From assembly GCA_017634475.1 (NCBI GenBank), contig JAGBNH010000030.1, positions 1-47,478 on the forward strand: a stretch of DNA of 47,478 bases. Reading direction: 5' to 3'. The notes under the pieces are model-generated. The model worked only from the letters and a program-made list of their open reading frames with translations, had not been told where the DNA came from and did no database searches. This document shows positions 6,213 through 24,499 of the stretch, one piece after another (within the stretch, counting starts at the first letter, position 1; each line of letters starts with the position of its first letter). This stretch comes from Eubacterium sp. (GTDB lineage Bacteria > Bacillota > Clostridia > Lachnospirales > Lachnospiraceae). Both the position numbers and the translations under genes were made by a program.

Positions 6213-6218
6213 CTACAA

Positions 6219-6370
6219 GCCGATGAGCTGCCGTAGACAGCAGGTGCCGTAAGGCGTAACGTAGAACAACCTGCCGAGGAGGAGAAAAGAGATGTGCCCG
6301 GGAAGGCGCATTTGAAGGACTAAGTTGTCTCGCCCTGTCTGCATAACAGTGCGGGATTATTTTTTTTTCT
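6219..6370 (+). promoter_or_regulatory. Ribosomal protein L10 leader (autoregulatory mRNA structure)
   Basis: The 321-base gap before rplJ is filled by this leader. The conserved block CCGTAGACAGCAGGTG (6231-6246) and its partner CCTGCCGAGG, about 45 bases downstream, match the known L10 leader, in which the L10(L12)4 complex binds its own message. A terminator-like stem with eight Ts closes the element at 6329-6368. This suggests regulation by transcription attenuation, as in other Firmicutes. Recognition is by memory of the consensus, not by a covariance search. Confidence 0.8.
6329..6370 (+). terminator. Attenuator hairpin of the L10 leader
   Basis: CTCGCCCTG (6329-6337) pairs with CAGTGCGGG (6347-6355) with one mismatch and one G-U pair, followed by an uninterrupted run of eight Ts (6361-6368). 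It stands 40 bases before the rplJ start, as expected for an attenuator. Confidence 0.65.
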
Positions 6371-6410
6371 AAGACGTGCACTCATTAGACTATAAAGGAG
6401 GTACGTTTCA

Positions 6411-16562: not shown

Positions 16563-16571
16563 TGCTATAAT
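16563..16571 (+). promoter_or_regulatory. Extended -10 promoter of the tubulin-like gene
   Basis: TGCTATAAT is a perfect extended -10 element, with no good -35 box. Its TATAAT overlaps the upstream in-frame ATG at 16570. This argues that translation begins at the later ATG at 16621 rather than at 16570. Confidence 0.6.
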
Positions 16572-16620
16572 GTCTCGTATCTGTGGGAAGTACTGCGCGT
16601 CATTGCGAAGGAGTAGAACT

Positions 16621-19173
16621 ATGATACTGATCGACACACAAAAAGAAGAATTCAGCAAACTGAAGAAGATCCGTATTTTTGGAAAATCAAAGGATAAGCA
16701 GCAGGAAGAGAACGAGTTCTACGGAGATCTTCTGGTGGTTGGCCTTGGAGGTGTTGGACGGCAGGTGGTTACCGCATTTAAAGGAATGATGCGGGATAAG
16801 ATCACGCCGGAGGACAATATCAATTTCCTTCTGATCGATTCGGATATCCCCTCCATGGAGGAGACCATCAAGGAATCCAGAGAGGGCCTGGGACTCAACG
16901 CACTGGAAGTGATCAGTATTTACCGTCCCAATCTGACCAATCTTTTGACGGAGGGAACGGGTGAAGGACCGGTACAGAGTACCATCGCCAAGTGGATGCG
17001 CCCGGATTTCCCGGCACTTTCCATCGACCGTGACGGTGCCAAGGGAAACCGGCAGATCGGTCGTCTGATGTTCTCCAATGCCTACGGAGATATGCGGATC
17101 CTGCTTTTTGAGAAGCTGGATCAGATCTATAACCGTTCCAAGACGGGACGGATGGACGTGATCGTGGTCTCCGGTATCGCCGGAGGAACCGGCAGCGGTA
17201 TCCTGGCGGATGTGGCCTATAACATCCGTGCCTACGGAAGATCCAGGAAATGGAAGAATTTCCGGGTCGGCGGATGTCTGCTCACTCCGGATGTGCTGTA
17301 CGCAAATCCCCTGTTCCTGAAGAGCTGGGAGAAGAAGGGAATCCTGGATGCCAATGCTTTTGCCACCCTGCTTGAGGTTGAGCAGCTTATGACGCTTTCC
17401 GAACGGGGAGAGTCCTACACCTTTGAAAGCGGATCCCACCGTCTTACCATTAAAGAGAATCTTTTTGATACCTGTATGCTGGTATCCGGCAAGGAGGATG
17501 ACAAGGGGTATCTTCCGGAGAGTGTGATCTACACCGATACAGCATATTTCCTTTATAAGCTTTCCTGCATGAAGAAGGTAGGTGACCCGGGAGAAGAGGG
17601 CGGAGAGGAAGTACTTCTCCGGGATGCCTTTTTCGACAAGAACGGTTCCCGGCTGTTTAAGGTCCTGAATGAATCGGATTATCGTATCCCCATCAAGGAG
17701 ATGGAGAATATCTGCGAGTACCAGGTATTCAAGGAAGCGTATAATCGTATTCACCGGATGGATGCGCCGGTGCCGGAAAATGTTCTCGCCGACTGCTTCG
17801 GCGAGATCCGGGAATTCCTGGAGGCCGGTCCCTCGGATCCCATCAATATGCAAGTCAGCGGCCTGATCCGGGTGCAGTCCTATGTGAAGCCGAACTATAA
17901 GCAGATCAAGAAGGGACAGGATGATTTCCGTTACAATGTACCTAACCAGCTGGCTTCCTTTAAGGAGGAGATCCCGAAGATCGTCAAGATCCTGAAGAAC
18001 GATATCATAGCCCGGCTGGATCAGCATATTCAGAATTACATGCGTGAGTATGGCCCCTTCATGACCATCGCACTGATCGGTTCCAACGGATTTGCCGGTC
18101 TGACTCAGGATCAGGGACTGATCCTGGAGGCAAAGCGTCTGGAGGAGCTTTGCAGGCAGCAGCAGCCGGTGGGTGAATATCGTCGGATCATTGATTCCAT
18201 CCTGCAAATGGTGAGCAAGAGGCTCTTTGCCTTCCCGTCAGCCAAGCGGGAGACAGAGAACGGCTATTACGACGCCTGCACCAGAGAGATCCTGGAGACA
18301 GAGCGTAAGGCCATCCGCGACGGTCTGAATGATCAGGATGTATTCGGAGACGTGGTGCGTCTGCTCCGTCAGCGGGCGGAACAGTTAACGGATATCTATG
18401 AACGCTTCGACCAGGATCTGTACATTTCCGTGGAAGACCTGGCAAATAACGGACAGCGGGTCGTAGGGTATCTCCTGAAGGATGCCAGGCGTCATGAATT
18501 CCTTCCTGCGGATTACGTCACAGAGGGCAGGATCGAGGATGTACGCAAGGGCATCATCAACCTGATGGTGAACCATGAGGCGGATATCGATAACGGACGG
18601 ATCGTTCCGGTGCGGCAGGAGATGGAGAAGATCTATCAGAACCTGCTCATCGGTATCGGGGCGTATGCACCGGAGAAACTGATCTTCACCGCATTTGCGG
18701 ATAAAGCGCCGACGCTGCAGGAACTGAACATGATGTTCGTATCGCCGACAAATGACCAGCGTGAGAAAGTCATGCTCCGGGCAGCAGGGGCCTTCGTGGA
18801 AGGCGCCAGCCAGAAGATCCAGAAGAAGCAGATGTGTATCATGAAGAAGGAGGGCCTGGGCCTTCTGGAAATGAAGCGGATCATTTCCATTCCGGAGGAG
18901 ATGCCGTATTTCTCCGCAGCGCTCCGGCAGGTGCTTACCTCCGATCCCTACAATGAAAATGCAAGCTCCATCACCATGAATGCCGGTGAGCTGGAGATCT
19001 CCATGGAAGATATGTATGTCAGTGTTCCGAAGGAGCAGCTGCAGTGCATCGACGATCTGCAGCAGGGCTATGCGGCCATTGACCAGTCCACATATTTTGG
19101 TCTTCATACGGATGAGACCAGGAACCTGCGCGAGAAGAACGATGCGCAGAATACAACAGCTGAAGAATCCTAA
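16621..19173 (+). CDS. Large tubulin/FtsZ-like GTPase-fold protein
   Basis: The 850-residue protein has an N-terminal tubulin-like nucleotide-binding domain. A glycine-rich start (VVGLGGVGRQ, residues 39-48) resembles the first strand and loop of FtsZ/tubulin. The phosphate-binding tubulin signature appears as GIAGGTGSGILADV at about residues 185-198. I take it to belong to the large Tubulin_2-type families, which are distant from cell-division FtsZ. The C-terminal 500 residues are mostly helical with charged stretches and no motif I recognise. The start at 16621 is supported by AAGGAGTAG and by the promoter position. It has its own promoter, and the next gene has another, so it seems monocistronic. 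Family members are proposed to act in membrane remodelling or stress. Its role here is unknown. Confidence 0.65.
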   Translation: MILIDTQKEEFSKLKKIRIFGKSKDKQQEENEFYGDLLVVGLGGVGRQVVTAFKGMMRDKITPEDNINFLLIDSDIPSMEETIKESREGLGLNALEVISIYRPNLTNLLTEGTGEGPVQSTIAKWMRPDFPALSIDRDGAKGNRQIGRLMFSNAYGDMRILLFEKLDQIYNRSKTGRMDVIVVSGIAGGTGSGILADVAYNIRAYGRSRKWKNFRVGGCLLTPDVLYANPLFLKSWEKKGILDANAFATLLEVEQLMTLSERGESYTFESGSHRLTIKENLFDTCMLVSGKEDDKGYLPESVIYTDTAYFLYKLSCMKKVGDPGEEGGEEVLLRDAFFDKNGSRLFKVLNESDYRIPIKEMENICEYQVFKEAYNRIHRMDAPVPENVLADCFGEIREFLEAGPSDPINMQVSGLIRVQSYVKPNYKQIKKGQDDFRYNVPNQLASFKEEIPKIVKILKNDIIARLDQHIQNYMREYGPFMTIALIGSNGFAGLTQDQGLILEAKRLEELCRQQQPVGEYRRIIDSILQMVSKRLFAFPSAKRETENGYYDACTREILETERKAIRDGLNDQDVFGDVVRLLRQRAEQLTDIYERFDQDLYISVEDLANNGQRVVGYLLKDARRHEFLPADYVTEGRIEDVRKGIINLMVNHEADIDNGRIVPVRQEMEKIYQNLLIGIGAYAPEKLIFTAFADKAPTLQELNMMFVSPTNDQREKVMLRAAGAFVEGASQKIQKKQMCIMKKEGLGLLEMKRIISIPEEMPYFSAALRQVLTSDPYNENASSITMNAGELEISMEDMYVSVPKEQLQCIDDLQQGYAAIDQSTYFGLHTDETRNLREKNDAQNTTAEES

Positions 19174-20788: not shown

Positions 20789-21169
20789 CTATATCGTTTT
20801 ATCCAGATGATAAAGCTTCTTCAGATTGTACAGGCATTCGCTGATGCCGTCCAATGCGGTTTCCAGCTGAAGAGCCACAAATACCTTGTGAACCTTTCCA
20901 TCGGGATATAAACGCTGGAACAACCGGGACATATTCTGTACGGAAGTTGCGTCTTCCGTTTCCAGAAGATCGGCAAGCTGGGAACCGAATTCCACCAATG
21001 CATCATAGATCACGGGGTACTCGGTGAGCGCGCGCTCCTTCATGATGATCCAGTAGTAATATTTGATCCCGCTGGTAAATCCCTTCTTTATGGATGGAAG
21101 TTCGGAAACGGGCTTGATGGGCCGTTTGGCAAGCTCGGGATTTACAGGCATAAGATTATCATTCGTCAT
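20789..21169 (-). CDS. Unknown 126-residue helical protein
   Basis: I do not recognise this protein. It is 126 residues, without signal peptide or membrane segment. A proline-rich N-terminal 28 residues lead into a mostly helical body containing GIKYYYWIIMKERALTEYP and a C-terminal helix rich in leucine and tyrosine. It is surely a real gene. A consensus promoter (TTGACA, 17 bases, TAAAAT) lies about 40 bases upstream, GAGGGGG precedes the ATG, and a perfect terminator follows the stop. It stands alone between the converging PurF-like gene and the divergent TetM-like fusion. The strong, isolated signals suggest a well-expressed housekeeping or regulatory protein of unknown function. Confidence 0.75.
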   Translation of the reverse strand: MTNDNLMPVNPELAKRPIKPVSELPSIKKGFTSGIKYYYWIIMKERALTEYPVIYDALVEFGSQLADLLETEDATSVQNMSRLFQRLYPDGKVHKVFVALQLETALDGISECLYNLKKLYHLDKTI

Positions 21170-21234: not shown

Positions 21235-21392
21235 GCATCATACAGGGGGAAAACGGACGGAAAGAATCGAGGGAGGATCGATCCGGCAGTATGACAGTAT
21301 TTTGATACTTTTGGCGGCGCACAAGCAGGATCTGCGTCCTGGGAAGCTTCTCGGCAGGACTACGATTTGAGAAAGAAAAATGAGGTTCCGAT

Positions 21393-24029
21393 ATGAAAAG
21401 TACCATCGGGGTTATGGCCCATGTGGATGCAGGAAAAACGACATTGATCGAGCAGCTGATGGTGGCTGCGGGAAGGCTTAAAGAGGCGGGAAGAGTGGAT
21501 CACGGAACCGCCTTTCTGGATTCGGACGCCCAGGAACGGGCCAGGGGGATCACCATTTCCTCCAAGAGCTGCCGGCTTTCTGCGGGAGACCTTTCCCTGA
21601 CTCTGATCGATACACCGGGACATGTGGATTTTACCGCGGAGACGGAGCGGGTGCTCCCGGTGCTTGATGCGGCGATCCTGCTCATCGGAGCGGGAAACCG
21701 GATCCCGGCCCATGCGGGATATCTCTTCCGGCTGCTGCAGGAACGGAGCATCCCTACACTGGTCTTCTTCAATAAAATGGATCTTCCGGTTCCCGGGAGA
21801 GAGGAGCTGATGAAGCTTCTTCGTCAGACCCTGGGGGAGGGCTTTACGGACTGGTACGGCGACCCGGCCCAAAGGGACGAAGAGGCTGCGGTGCTGGACG
21901 ACGCCTTGACGGAGCATTTCCTCGCAGAGGGACAGCTCCCGGAGGGGGCTTTGCAGGACCTCTTTCAGCGGGGGAAGCTCTTTCCGGTGGTCTTCGGTTC
22001 GGCGCTGCAGGGAAAGGGTGTGACGGAGCTGCTGCAGATGATGCAGGAGCTGCTCGGTGAAAGGCAGGAGAAAACGGATGAAGGCCCATTTGGCGCTTAT
22101 TGCTATAAGATCCTGCATGACATGGCGGGGCAGAAGCTGAGCTTCCTGAAGATCCTGTCAGGAAGGCTTTCGGTACGGGAACAGATCACCTATTCCGGCA
22201 GGGGAGAGGATGAAGAATATACGGAGAAGGTTACGGGGATCCGGCTCTATGACGGCGCCGACTTTCTTAAGGTGCAGGAGGCACTGCCCGGGGACATCGT
22301 CGCCCTTACCGGCCTCAGCTCCACCTTTGCGGGCTGCGGTCTGGGGATCGCTCCCTCCCTCCGGCCGGAGAGCAGCCGGCCGATGCTCAGTTACCGGCTG
22401 ATCCTTCCGGAGGGAACGGATCCGGCGGAGTTCCTGCCGAAGCTTCGTCAGCTGGAGGAAGAGGAAACCACCCTTTCGGTGGAATGGTTCCCGGAGAGAG
22501 CCCAGATCAACGTGACCCTGTACGGAGGGGTGCAGATGGAGATCCTGACGGAACGGATCAGGGAACGGTTCGGCCTTCAGGTATCCTTCGATGAGGGAAA
22601 TGTGGTTTACCGGGAAACTCTGGCAGCCCCTTCCTATGGAGTGGGACATTTTGAACCCCTCAGGCACTATGCCGAGGTACATTTCCTTCTGGAACCCCTT
22701 CCCCGGGGGACAGGACTGCTTGTGGAAAGCCGTCTGTCAACGGATGAGCTGGATCGGAACTGGCAGCAGACCATTCTCAATGCCGTAAGGCAGGAAGAAC
22801 TCACGGGGGTTCTGGTAAATGCCCGGCTTACGGATCTTCGGATCACGCTGGTGGCGGGGCGTTCCCACAAGAAGCATACGGAGGGCGGAGATTTTCGGGA
22901 AGCAGCTCTGCGGGCCGTCCGTCAGGGACTGATGTCCGGGACCTCTCTGCTTCTGGAGCCTTACGTGCGTTTTTCTCTGACGGTTCCTCAGGAATCCGCG
23001 GGACGGGCGCTGTATGATATGGATCAGAGGGCCCAGGAATGCAGGATCACGGAGCAGGGCACCGACCAGGTCACCATGGAAGGCCGGGGCGCTGTTTCGA
23101 AGCTTCGGAATTATGTGGCAGAGGTGCGGGCCTATACCCGGGGAGAAGGTGTATTCCGGATGCTGTATGACGGCTATGATGAGGTGCCGGATGCGGAGAA
23201 TGTGGTGGAAATGACGGGCTATGATCCGGAATCGGATCAGGAGCATCCTTCCTCCTCCGTATTTGTGGATCACGGGGCTGCGGATCTGGTGCCCTGGGAT
23301 CTGGCTCCGGAACGGATGCATCTCTTCCCCCGGTTTGGGGAGTTTTATCCGGAGCTTAGCAAAAAGGTGCAGGAAGAACCGGAGGATGCGACAAAGGAAA
23401 GAAGGAGAACAGGCTCCGTCATGGACCGGCTCTCTGCCATAGGAACAGAGGAGATCGACCGGATCCTGCAGCAGGCCGGCCACGCCAATGAAACGACGGA
23501 GCATGCAAGGGAAAGGAAGAATCGCTGGACCACGGCGACCCGGAGAAAACAGACGCCGGACGCGGGAACTAAGAATCGGACGATGTACGTAAAAAAGCCT
23601 GCCTCCAGGTCCTATCTGCTGGTGGATGGATACAATATTCTTCATGCCTGGGAAGAGACCAAAGGTCTGGTGGAACTTGATCTCCATGCTGCCAGAAATA
23701 CCCTGCTGGAGATCCTTACGGAATACAGGGCCCTGTCCAAAGAGGAGATCATTGTAGTTTTTGATGCATACCGGGTGCCGGGACACACGACAGAGGTGAT
23801 GGAGTACCAGAACCTGCATGTGGTCTATACCCGTACGGCAGAGACGGCAGACCAGTACATCGCCCGGTTTGCCAAGGAAAATGAGAAGAATTACGATATT
23901 ACGGTGGCGACCTCTGACGGGATGATCCAGCTGATCATCCGGGGAGCGAATTCCCGGCTGCTTTCCGCAAGAGATCTGCATGATGCAGTGAAGCGGAAGA
24001 AGGACGCCCTGGGTGTCACTTATTTATGA
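21393..24029 (+). CDS. TetM/EF-G-like translational GTPase fused to a NYN (Rae1/YacP-like) nuclease domain
   Basis: The 878-residue protein joins two modules. Residues 1 to about 620 follow the TetM/TetO ribosomal-protection pattern, related to EF-G. The P-loop AHVDAGKTT lies at 9-17, GITISS is switch I, and DTPGH, NKMD and GSALQGKGV follow, then domains II-V including the TetM-type QESAGRALYDMDQRAQEC. A charged linker covers about 620-738. Residues 739-878 form a NYN/PIN-like domain close to Bacillus YacP (Rae1), with YLLVDGYNILHAWE, IIVVFDAYRVPG, ETADQYIAR and VATSDGMIQ supplying the acidic metal-binding residues. Rae1 cuts mRNA in the ribosomal A site, so the GTPase half may carry the nuclease there. 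TGAGGT precedes the ATG. Automatic annotation as tetracycline resistance would be misleading. The 3' end overlaps rlmH by 10 bases, tail to tail. Confidence 0.88.
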   Translation: MKSTIGVMAHVDAGKTTLIEQLMVAAGRLKEAGRVDHGTAFLDSDAQERARGITISSKSCRLSAGDLSLTLIDTPGHVDFTAETERVLPVLDAAILLIGAGNRIPAHAGYLFRLLQERSIPTLVFFNKMDLPVPGREELMKLLRQTLGEGFTDWYGDPAQRDEEAAVLDDALTEHFLAEGQLPEGALQDLFQRGKLFPVVFGSALQGKGVTELLQMMQELLGERQEKTDEGPFGAYCYKILHDMAGQKLSFLKILSGRLSVREQITYSGRGEDEEYTEKVTGIRLYDGADFLKVQEALPGDIVALTGLSSTFAGCGLGIAPSLRPESSRPMLSYRLILPEGTDPAEFLPKLRQLEEEETTLSVEWFPERAQINVTLYGGVQMEILTERIRERFGLQVSFDEGNVVYRETLAAPSYGVGHFEPLRHYAEVHFLLEPLPRGTGLLVESRLSTDELDRNWQQTILNAVRQEELTGVLVNARLTDLRITLVAGRSHKKHTEGGDFREAALRAVRQGLMSGTSLLLEPYVRFSLTVPQESAGRALYDMDQRAQECRITEQGTDQVTMEGRGAVSKLRNYVAEVRAYTRGEGVFRMLYDGYDEVPDAENVVEMTGYDPESDQEHPSSSVFVDHGAADLVPWDLAPERMHLFPRFGEFYPELSKKVQEEPEDATKERRRTGSVMDRLSAIGTEEIDRILQQAGHANETTEHARERKNRWTTATRRKQTPDAGTKNRTMYVKKPASRSYLLVDGYNILHAWEETKGLVELDLHAARNTLLEILTEYRALSKEEIIVVFDAYRVPGHTTEVMEYQNLHVVYTRTAETADQYIARFAKENEKNYDITVATSDGMIQLIIRGANSRLLSARDLHDAVKRKKDALGVTYL

Positions 24030-24499
24030 TAGGGCTCACAGTGCATGATCCGGTAGGCACGGTAGAGCTGTTCCGACAGGATCACCCGCATCAGCTGATG
24101 GGGGAAGGTCATGGCGGAGAAGCTGATCTTTTTGTCTGCCCGGGAGAGCACGGCGTCGGAGAGTCCTAAAGAACCGCCGATCACAAACTGGATATGGCTT
24201 GTGCCGCCTACTCCAAGCCGTTCCAGCTCGGCGGAGAAGCCTTCGCTGGTGTAGCCTTTGCCGTCGATGGCAAGGGCGATCACCGTGGCGCCGTCCTTCA
24301 TTTTCGAAAGAAGCCGATCACCTTCCTTCTCCTTGATCTGTTTTTCTTCTGCTTCACTGGCAGAGTCCGGCGTTTTCTCGTCGGCCACTTCGATCTCGCT
24401 CAGCCTGCAGTAGCGGCTGAGTCTTTTTTTATATTCTTCCAGTGCATCCCGGTAGAATTTCTCCTTGATCTTTCCGACACAGAGGATATCGATCTGCAT
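24020..24499 (-). CDS. rlmH: 23S rRNA pseudouridine-1915 N3-methyltransferase
   Basis: The 159-residue protein is RlmH, a SPOUT-class (knotted) methyltransferase that uses S-adenosylmethionine to methylate pseudouridine 1915 in helix 69 of 23S rRNA, at the decoding side of the assembled 70S ribosome. The whole length matches the family. The N-terminus is MQIDILCVGKIKEKFYRDAL, the cofactor loop is FVIGGSLGLSDAV, and the C-terminus HQLMRVILSEQLYRAYRI holds the conserved residues of the knot and ends in CEPYHK. AAAGGAGT precedes the start. It lies 94 bases downstream of the transporter gene on the same strand, and its last ten bases overlap the last ten of the convergent TetM-like fusion gene. 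Confidence 0.95.
   Translation of the reverse strand: MQIDILCVGKIKEKFYRDALEEYKKRLSRYCRLSEIEVADEKTPDSASEAEEKQIKEKEGDRLLSKMKDGATVIALAIDGKGYTSEGFSAELERLGVGGTSHIQFVIGGSLGLSDAVLSRADKKISFSAMTFPHQLMRVILSEQLYRAYRIMHCEPYHK

Follow-up and report, generated by a model that had tools for sequence, protein, structure and literature searches.

Translational GTPases of the EF-G and Tet types insert their domain IV into the ribosomal A site. The endonuclease Rae1 (YacP) of Bacillus subtilis has been described as acting in the same site, according to the portions available of two papers (PMC12320835, PMC6613710). In the accessible text of Atkinson 2015 (PMC4342817), Tet proteins of ten clostridial species were reported to have gained a YacP-like NYN domain, and a resistance mechanism was suggested. 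Here, we describe a gene joining two such modules on a contig of Eubacterium sp., family Lachnospiraceae (JAGBNH010000030.1, GenBank assembly GCA_017634475.1), analysed over its 47,478 nucleotides (hereafter called the window). The gene (21393..24029, + strand) codes for a protein of 878 residues composed of a translational GTPase, an extension, a linker and an NYN nuclease domain. We favour, with moderate confidence, the view that this fused protein is the Rae1 of these bacteria, i.e. a ribosome-directed mRNA endonuclease that replaces free Rae1 and is tethered to a GTPase that is not of the Tet type.

The NYN half closely resembles YacP/Rae1, as the original prediction, made from the letters of the DNA, had proposed. 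It matches the NYN_YacP signature over residues 742-871 (23616..24005, +) with 142.1 bits for a cut-off of 24.6, and a sequence search of the PDB with this part of the protein retrieved the B. subtilis YacP/Rae1 structures 5mq8 (E 6.4e-16) and 5mq9 (E 7.2e-16). The motifs DGYN, VVFDA, ETAD and VATSD are all present. Four predicted catalytic Asp residues are found without exception in the 89 proteins aligned, namely D745 (23625..23627, +), D791 (23763..23765, +), D820 (23850..23852, +) and D842 (23916..23918, +), which we take from the NYN and PIN families to form the metal site.

Fused and free forms hardly ever occur together. We sampled 196 genomes of the order, defining a fusion as an open frame of at least 645 codons; for seven genomes, the frame length was taken from a separate listing. 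Sixty-two genomes harbour the fusion and 95 a free YacP, with a single genome clearly harbouring both; 7 were unclassified and 33 had no match. The genetic environments of the two forms also differ. Among 36 loci collected as free YacP, of which 34 are truly free and two (L016 and L030) are fragments of fused genes, rlmB adjoins yacP in 26 cases and sigH in 30, and a gene of the mrnC type, encoding an RNase III domain, is found in 16. Scans of 96 fused loci (76 named loci and 20 further ones, with at least 2 genomes in both sets) showed neither rlmB nor sigH in their flanks. Both rlmB and a sigH-like gene are nevertheless present in the six fused genomes that we checked. In four of them (G002, G005, G009 and G167), the two open reading frames (ORFs), with mechanically assigned starts, are separated by 43, 41, 5 and 62 bases, respectively, with no yacP match between them. 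It is because of the near-exclusive distribution of the two forms and of the missing yacP between these abutting genes that we consider the fused protein to be the Rae1 of these bacteria; it apparently takes the place of the free enzyme in the genome.

The surroundings of free yacP genes also bear on a different function, in which the fused protein would be a factor for ribosome assembly or ribosomal RNA (rRNA) processing, with the GTPase checking new subunits and the NYN domain trimming or destroying rRNA. The frequent proximity of yacP to rlmB (26/36) and to the mrnC-type gene (16/36) is in keeping with such a role, and the accessible text of Atkinson 2015 (PMC4342817) cites a proposal of rRNA and transfer RNA (tRNA) maturation for the NYN domain. 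We nevertheless find it highly improbable, as the available sections on Rae1 describe an A-site mRNA nuclease (PMC12320835, PMC6613710) and rlmB is found beside none of the 96 fused loci scanned.

The C-terminus of the NYN domain sets most of the fused proteins apart from free Rae1. Free YacP/Rae1 proteins end in a conserved tail of the E-x-(hydrophobic)-R-R type (EKLRR type), the pattern being found in 30 of 33 free proteins. In 5mq9, the tail has the sequence FEKLRR, with its last residue at chain position 166, which we take to be R166 of Rae1. R166P is one of the rae1 alleles interpreted as loss-of-function in B. subtilis, according to the portion available of the report (PMC6613710). The window protein has no such tail and ends 134 residues after DGYN, compared with at least 162 residues in the 33 free proteins. 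Thirty-nine of 100 distinct, complete fused ORFs, including that of the window, similarly stop before the tail, at most 146 residues after DGYN, and most of the others no longer show the pattern; this count left out 26 ORFs that were open or of unclear length. We infer that the tail might have served the docking of the free enzyme and become dispensable once the GTPase delivered the domain.

The decay of the tail in many fused proteins suggests that the NYN domain depends on the GTPase half. It thereby speaks against a scenario in which the chain combines two separate functions, that of an EF-G-like accessory or stall-clearing GTPase and that of an independent NYN nuclease, with the fusion merely keeping equal amounts of both near ribosomes. 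The linker is long and variable, as would suit such an arrangement, and unfused GTPases of the window subfamily occur in genomes with free YacP (21 of 22 genomes), so that each partner can work alone. As the fusion has also persisted through a deep radiation, we judge this scenario unlikely. The distribution of the unfused GTPases was examined further: of the 94 genomes whose only form of YacP is free, 21 have one, compared with 1 of 31 genomes without an NYN match (Fisher p = 0.014), a count that ignores relatedness and from which two genomes with contigs cut in the GTPase gene (G120 and G210) were left out. As kinship is uncorrected in this test, we draw no conclusion from the co-occurrence.

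The GTPase half carries the G1-G5 motifs and the domains IV and V of the translational GTPase superfamily. Its G domain (GTP_EFTU, residues 4-221; 21402..22055, +; Pfam 149.9 bits) harbours AHVDAGKTT, RGIT, DTPGH, NKMD and GSAL, whose patterns were found in 87, 87, 88, 86 and 85 of 88 relatives, respectively. It is followed by EF-G-like domains II and III (residues 234-399; 22092..22589, +), slightly below the Pfam gathering scores (26.9 and 21.3 bits, respectively, for a cut-off of 27 in both cases), domain IV (EFG_IV, residues 403-515; 22599..22937, +; 53.5 bits) and domain V (EFG_C, residues 520-600; 22950..23192, +; 51.3 bits). The PDB sequence search with this half gave TetO (218.9 bits) and EF-G (215.1 bits), and TetM was also matched. 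The original prediction of a complete TetM/EF-G-type GTPase thus holds for the G motifs and domain IV; the protein is not a complete TetM. From these comparisons of sequences, it is a member of a separate subfamily, about equally distant from TetO and from EF-G.

Two regions characterize this subfamily. In an alignment with Tet-like and EF-G proteins, the tip loop of domain IV (residues 489-500; 22857..22892, +) has the family signature GxxHxKHTExxD and reads SHKKHT in the window protein; K494 and H495 are found in 89 of 89 rows and H492 in 87. The tip sequence YSPVST, that of classical Tet proteins, was found in none of 88 relatives, and in 7 of the 15 Tet-like rows that we fetched (L191-L196 and L204); EF-G rows have SYH(E/D)VDSSEM. 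The second region is a C-terminal extension (residues 603-645; 23199..23327, +) with the signature SVFxxHGA...W...MH, in which S622 and F624 are present in 89 of 89 rows and W635 in 88. This extension is clear or partial in 19 of 20 rows labelled unfused, with most of it missing in the exception, L188, and in a shorter version in Clostridium-like unfused members. It was not seen in the Tet-like or EF-G rows of the alignment. Tet-like rows end in a short segment after domain V, which in Tet proteins is a helix, whereas the members of the window subfamily, fused or not, run on into SVFxxHGA...W. In a tree of 68 GTPases, the window subfamily forms a clade of 51 rows (100/99), separate from 13 Tet-like rows (97/92) and 4 EF-G rows, and the window protein thus lies outside of the Tet-like clade.

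These features bear on the suggestion of Atkinson 2015 that proteins of this kind are tetracycline ribosomal protection proteins, with the nuclease domain adding to resistance. The accessible text of that paper files such fusions in the Tet subfamily (PMC4342817), and a public record annotates the fusion as a member of the TetM/W/O/S family. Two fused copies are found on large plasmid records, and tet_protect is the best-scoring NCBIfam model for the window protein. Its score for that model is 368.9 bits for a cut-off of 775, and that for a second curated Tet model is 245.2 for a cut-off of 1100; however, 5 of 6 Tet-like rows scanned also fall below 775, L191 alone passing, and the missed cut-off is therefore weak evidence by itself. 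The curated EF-G models were missed as well (214.1 for a cut-off of 659.4, and 281.5 for 583). More telling are the absence of YSPVST, the end after domain V unlike that of Tet-like rows and the position outside of the Tet-like clade, on which we rejected the identification as a Tet resistance protein. The tip loops of domain IV displace tetracycline in Tet proteins, according to the portion available of Atkinson 2015 (PMC4342817); nothing on the tip was found in the accessible part of a review of ribosome protection proteins (PMC8161019). L191 comes from a genome (G061) that also carries the fusion; a genuine Tet-type gene thus occurs there alongside the fused one. Within the order sample, 20 of the 22 genomes belonging to the window family carry the fusion, a distribution unlike that of scattered acquired genes. 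We thus regard the resistance function as very unlikely: the fused protein is probably not a tetracycline protection protein, and the designation 'TetM-like' of the original prediction does not stand in the sense of resistance.

Other observations were made on the same families. The Tet-like rows devoid of YSPVST have the tips SVMST (L198) and SVNST (L203) or form a second Tet-like group with HTH-containing tips, e.g. HHIHTHPLDF (L197, L199-L202 and L205), on a branch of its own (95/84); the four members of this group that were scanned (L197, L199, L202 and L205) are below the Tet cut-off. The GTPase half (21393-23264) also matches the PHROG family phrog_6880, 'translation elongation factor', with 401.8 bits, more than for the NCBIfam Tet model, indicating that a similar factor is on record for phages or prophages.

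The fused gene is authentic. It starts with an ATG at 21393, preceded at 7 nt by a putative ribosome-binding site (GAGG, 21382..21385, +), and runs without internal stops to a stop codon at 24027-24029, so that GTPase and NYN domain are in one reading frame, as originally predicted, with neither a frameshift nor a stop between them. The charged, variable linker (residues 646-738; 23328..23606, +) ranges from 74 to 201 residues, with a median of 87, in the 89-row alignment, counting from residue 644; its motif EIDRIL (residues 687-692; 23451..23468, +) corresponds to an EIDxIL-like pattern in 73 of the 89 rows. An NYN_YacP match was found in 53 of 61 genomes near the window genome. Among the 37 genomes of the window genus, that of the window included, 33 have the NYN match in an open frame of at least 850 codons, and the fusion is therefore neither a chance event nor an assembly error. 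This wide recurrence led us to rule out an assembly or frameshift artefact. Two one-contig genomes (G002 and G005) contain a single NYN_YacP domain each, in the fused frame.

In 76 of 80 named loci, a single ORF contains both a GTPase match and the NYN domain, a share that is not a prevalence because these loci were chosen as the best matches to the NYN domain of the window. Sixty-eight of the 76 ORFs are complete, distinct and 780-1010 residues long; the 76 include L145, in which only the end of the GTPase is in the NYN frame. Five fused ORFs that were open, short or longer than 1010 residues were omitted from the alignment set (A4) before the counts were made. In L133, L145 and L151, the GTPase and the NYN part are in two overlapping or adjacent frames, probably owing to frameshifts in metagenome-assembled genomes (MAGs); in L133, the second ORF begins exactly at the extension, as expected of a split gene. 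In a Lachnospiraceae MAG from goat rectum (L095:1-2465), the fused gene is interrupted, with a gene for a serine recombinase (Pfam Resolvase, Recombinase and DUF4368) that ends just before the equivalent of residue 588, which looks like the insertion of a mobile element in domain V.

The fusion apparently extends beyond the order. In a sample of 199 genomes of the phylum, 109 had a match, 12 of them in frames of at least 870 codons, and 10 of these 12 belong to five families outside of the order. The 31 fused rows of the GTPase tree all belong to one branch of 32 (100/99), with an unfused GTPase, L189, on the next branch outward. The only row of this branch not labelled as fused, L190, has an ORF that runs off the end of its contig. 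The 34 fused and 32 free domains of an NYN tree of 66 rows are split on one branch. Both phylogenies fit a single fusion event and do not prove it.

Several observations weigh against the identification of the fused protein as a non-Tet Rae1. One genome (G207; family f2, genus g56) has the fusion and a free YacP, and another of the same genus (G086) possibly has a second, unlisted YacP match besides the fusion; G207, and perhaps G086, possibly represents a transitional or reacquired state. In two of the six fused genomes checked, rlmB and sigH are 3 kb (G062) and 10 kb (G074) apart, and these loci are uninformative on replacement because of that distance. The free YacP of G229 is not at rlmB-sigH, and no clear sigH was found in that genome. 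The Glu of the ETAD motif is replaced by Gln in 18 of 89 rows. Parts of the tail, as judged by pattern, are retained in 10 of the 100 fused ORFs, not all at the aligned place, and the loss of the tail could equally mean altered function. The support of the fused/free split in the NYN tree (96/76) is below the star mark of the tool, the window genome is about 81% complete, and several Tet-like rows, with their HTH-containing tips, also lack YSPVST. Lastly, a genetic linkage considered below as support was found in 2 of the 76 named fused loci, both from genomes already among the 17 window-genus loci, and the window copy itself lies in another setting.

That linkage involves secG, rnr and smpB, which form a common cluster in Firmicutes. 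In 9 of 17 loci of the window genus, the fused gene is at most about 4 kb from secG and rnr, and 6 of these also have smpB. A neighbourhood related to trans-translation and RNase R would fit A-site cutting, going by the portion available of PMC12320835, and it lends weak support to the favoured reading because it is limited to a clade. A general operon link to trans-translation was rejected, as the arrangement is present in part of the window genus and not elsewhere. Neighbour labels were assigned by eye, with a Pfam check of one example each for secG, rnr, smpB, rlmB, sigH, mrnC, tpi and the L095 recombinase; the identities of secG, rnr and smpB were checked on L040, and the pgk label was given by eye only.

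If the fused protein is indeed a tethered Rae1, its mode of action may be sketched by analogy with its relatives. When bound to GTP, the GTPase would dock on a stalled ribosome, at the factor site, with domain IV and its HxKHT tip probing or clearing the A site. Upon GTP hydrolysis and withdrawal of domain IV, the NYN domain would take over the A site, which its linker of ~90 residues could allow it to reach, and would use its aspartate metal site to cut the A-site codon, after which the truncated mRNA would be handed to trans-translation and to exonucleases such as RNase R. As the A site would have no room for domain IV and the NYN domain at once, a sequential hand-over is more plausible than joint action; the implied order is thus docking, probing or clearing, hydrolysis, withdrawal and cutting. 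We infer ribosome binding, GTP hydrolysis, A-site cutting and the order of these steps from the described behaviour of related factors.

The crowding of the A site might also mean that the nuclease cuts mRNA elsewhere, either at the mRNA entry or on an adjacent ribosome after a collision, rather than in the A site occupied by its own GTPase. With domain IV in place, the A site of the bound ribosome would be closed to the nuclease, and a linker of 74-201 residues could extend outside of it. The available sections of PMC12320835 and PMC6613710 place the action of free Rae1 in the A site, and we deem cutting elsewhere rather improbable. Returning to the tethered Rae1, a stronger version of it is possible and we propose it tentatively: the fused protein might be a GTP-licensed cutter, in which the GTPase cycle clears the A site and then admits the tethered nuclease, only on ribosomes judged to be stalled. 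It might be the general housekeeping form of Rae1 across much of Lachnospiraceae and neighbouring families, and the unfused GTPases of other Firmicutes might be a separate partner of Rae1.

In the window, the upstream neighbour of the fused gene is a divergent ORF of 126 residues (20789-21169, -) without a Pfam match. Downstream, a convergent SPOUT methyltransferase gene (24020-24499, -), presumably of the rlmH type, overlaps the end of the fused gene by ten bases. An rpoC-type gene (named by eye), a Tubulin_2 gene, an amidotransferase and a transporter are also found nearby. The Tubulin_2 gene (16570-19173) codes for a bacterial tubulin-like protein of 867 residues and comes shortly after the rpoC-type gene and a tRNA-Trp. 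An L10_leader (Rfam RF00557) was identified at 6213-6371 with 58.6 bits. No PADLOC match was found, and we rejected the possibility of a defence system on that basis.

The fusion is rarely found on mobile elements. Only 2 of 1195 plasmid records matching the full protein cover at least 80% of it, both large records, from Agathobacter rectalis and Monoglobus pectinilyticus, and the same coverage was reached in 2 of 102 phage records; a mobile resistance gene was rejected on these counts. The phage records MT835563.1 and MT835514.1, unannotated faecal 'Bacteriophage sp.', contain near full-length fusions with 39-41% identity and may be bacterial fragments. As anticipated by the original prediction, the A. 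rectalis fusion is annotated as 'TetM/TetW/TetO/TetS family tetracycline resistance ribosomal protection protein'. The Monoglobus fusion bears the name 'translation factor GTPase family protein'. A 169-kb plasmid of Ligilactobacillus salivarius (L241) codes for an unfused GTPase with 40% identity to residues 6-643 of the window protein, annotated as TetM/W/O/S resistance; it is likely another mislabelled member of the subfamily, outside of Clostridia. Clostridioides difficile plasmids of 96-99 kb (NZ_CP149721.1 and NZ_CP149712.1) harbour an NYN-domain protein ~37% identical to the Rae1-like part.

The fusion is present in many gut and rumen Clostridia. If our favoured reading is true, a translational GTPase is tied directly to mRNA cutting on the ribosome, common gut bacteria have a rescue route of their own, and it becomes testable how Rae1 enters the A site and what sets the timing of its cut. 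The database label would also call for correction: in commensals, this gene may be counted as a tetracycline resistance gene, which it probably is not, and this is relevant to resistome surveys. The original prediction mentioned similar fusions in Lachnospiraceae without a functional study; we also found no such study, and the architecture itself has been in print since 2015 and is thus not new. Among open-licence PMC full texts, no paper on the fusion was found beyond Atkinson 2015, and neither was the identification of the GTPase as non-Tet nor evidence of a stand-in for Rae1; Condon 2018, on Rae1 distribution, may already discuss the fusion.

Among described systems with points of resemblance, RelE-type ribosome-dependent mRNA nucleases are toxins of another fold and have no GTPase. 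The likeness would lie in the cutting of mRNA in the A site, which frees this site for transfer-messenger RNA, as described in the portion available of PMC12320835. The proteins of Atkinson 2015 have the same architecture, and they were treated there as a Tet variant, with no test of the tip, of Rae1 replacement or of the origin of the fusion found in the accessible text (PMC4342817). With EF-G, the fused protein shares domains I-V, the G motifs and, where its tip lines up with SYHEV of EF-G, a His residue, but it is 24-26% identical to the four EF-G rows, falls under the EF-G cut-offs and has in addition the extension and the nuclease. Tet(M), Tet(O) and Tet(W) share the EF-G-like GTPase domains I-V, with 28-32% identity to the 15 Tet-like rows; the fused protein differs from them by its HxKHT tip in place of YSPVST, its SVFxxHGA extension and its additional nuclease, and it belongs to a separate clade, below the curated cut-offs. 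By its sequence, its conserved Asp residues and its DGYN, FDA, TAD and TSD motifs, the NYN_YacP domain corresponds to that of B. subtilis Rae1/YacP (5mq8, 5mq9), whereas in the fused protein it forms the C-terminal part, behind a translational GTPase, and is encoded outside of the rlmB-sigH locus, and in the window protein it is devoid of the EKLRR-type tail.

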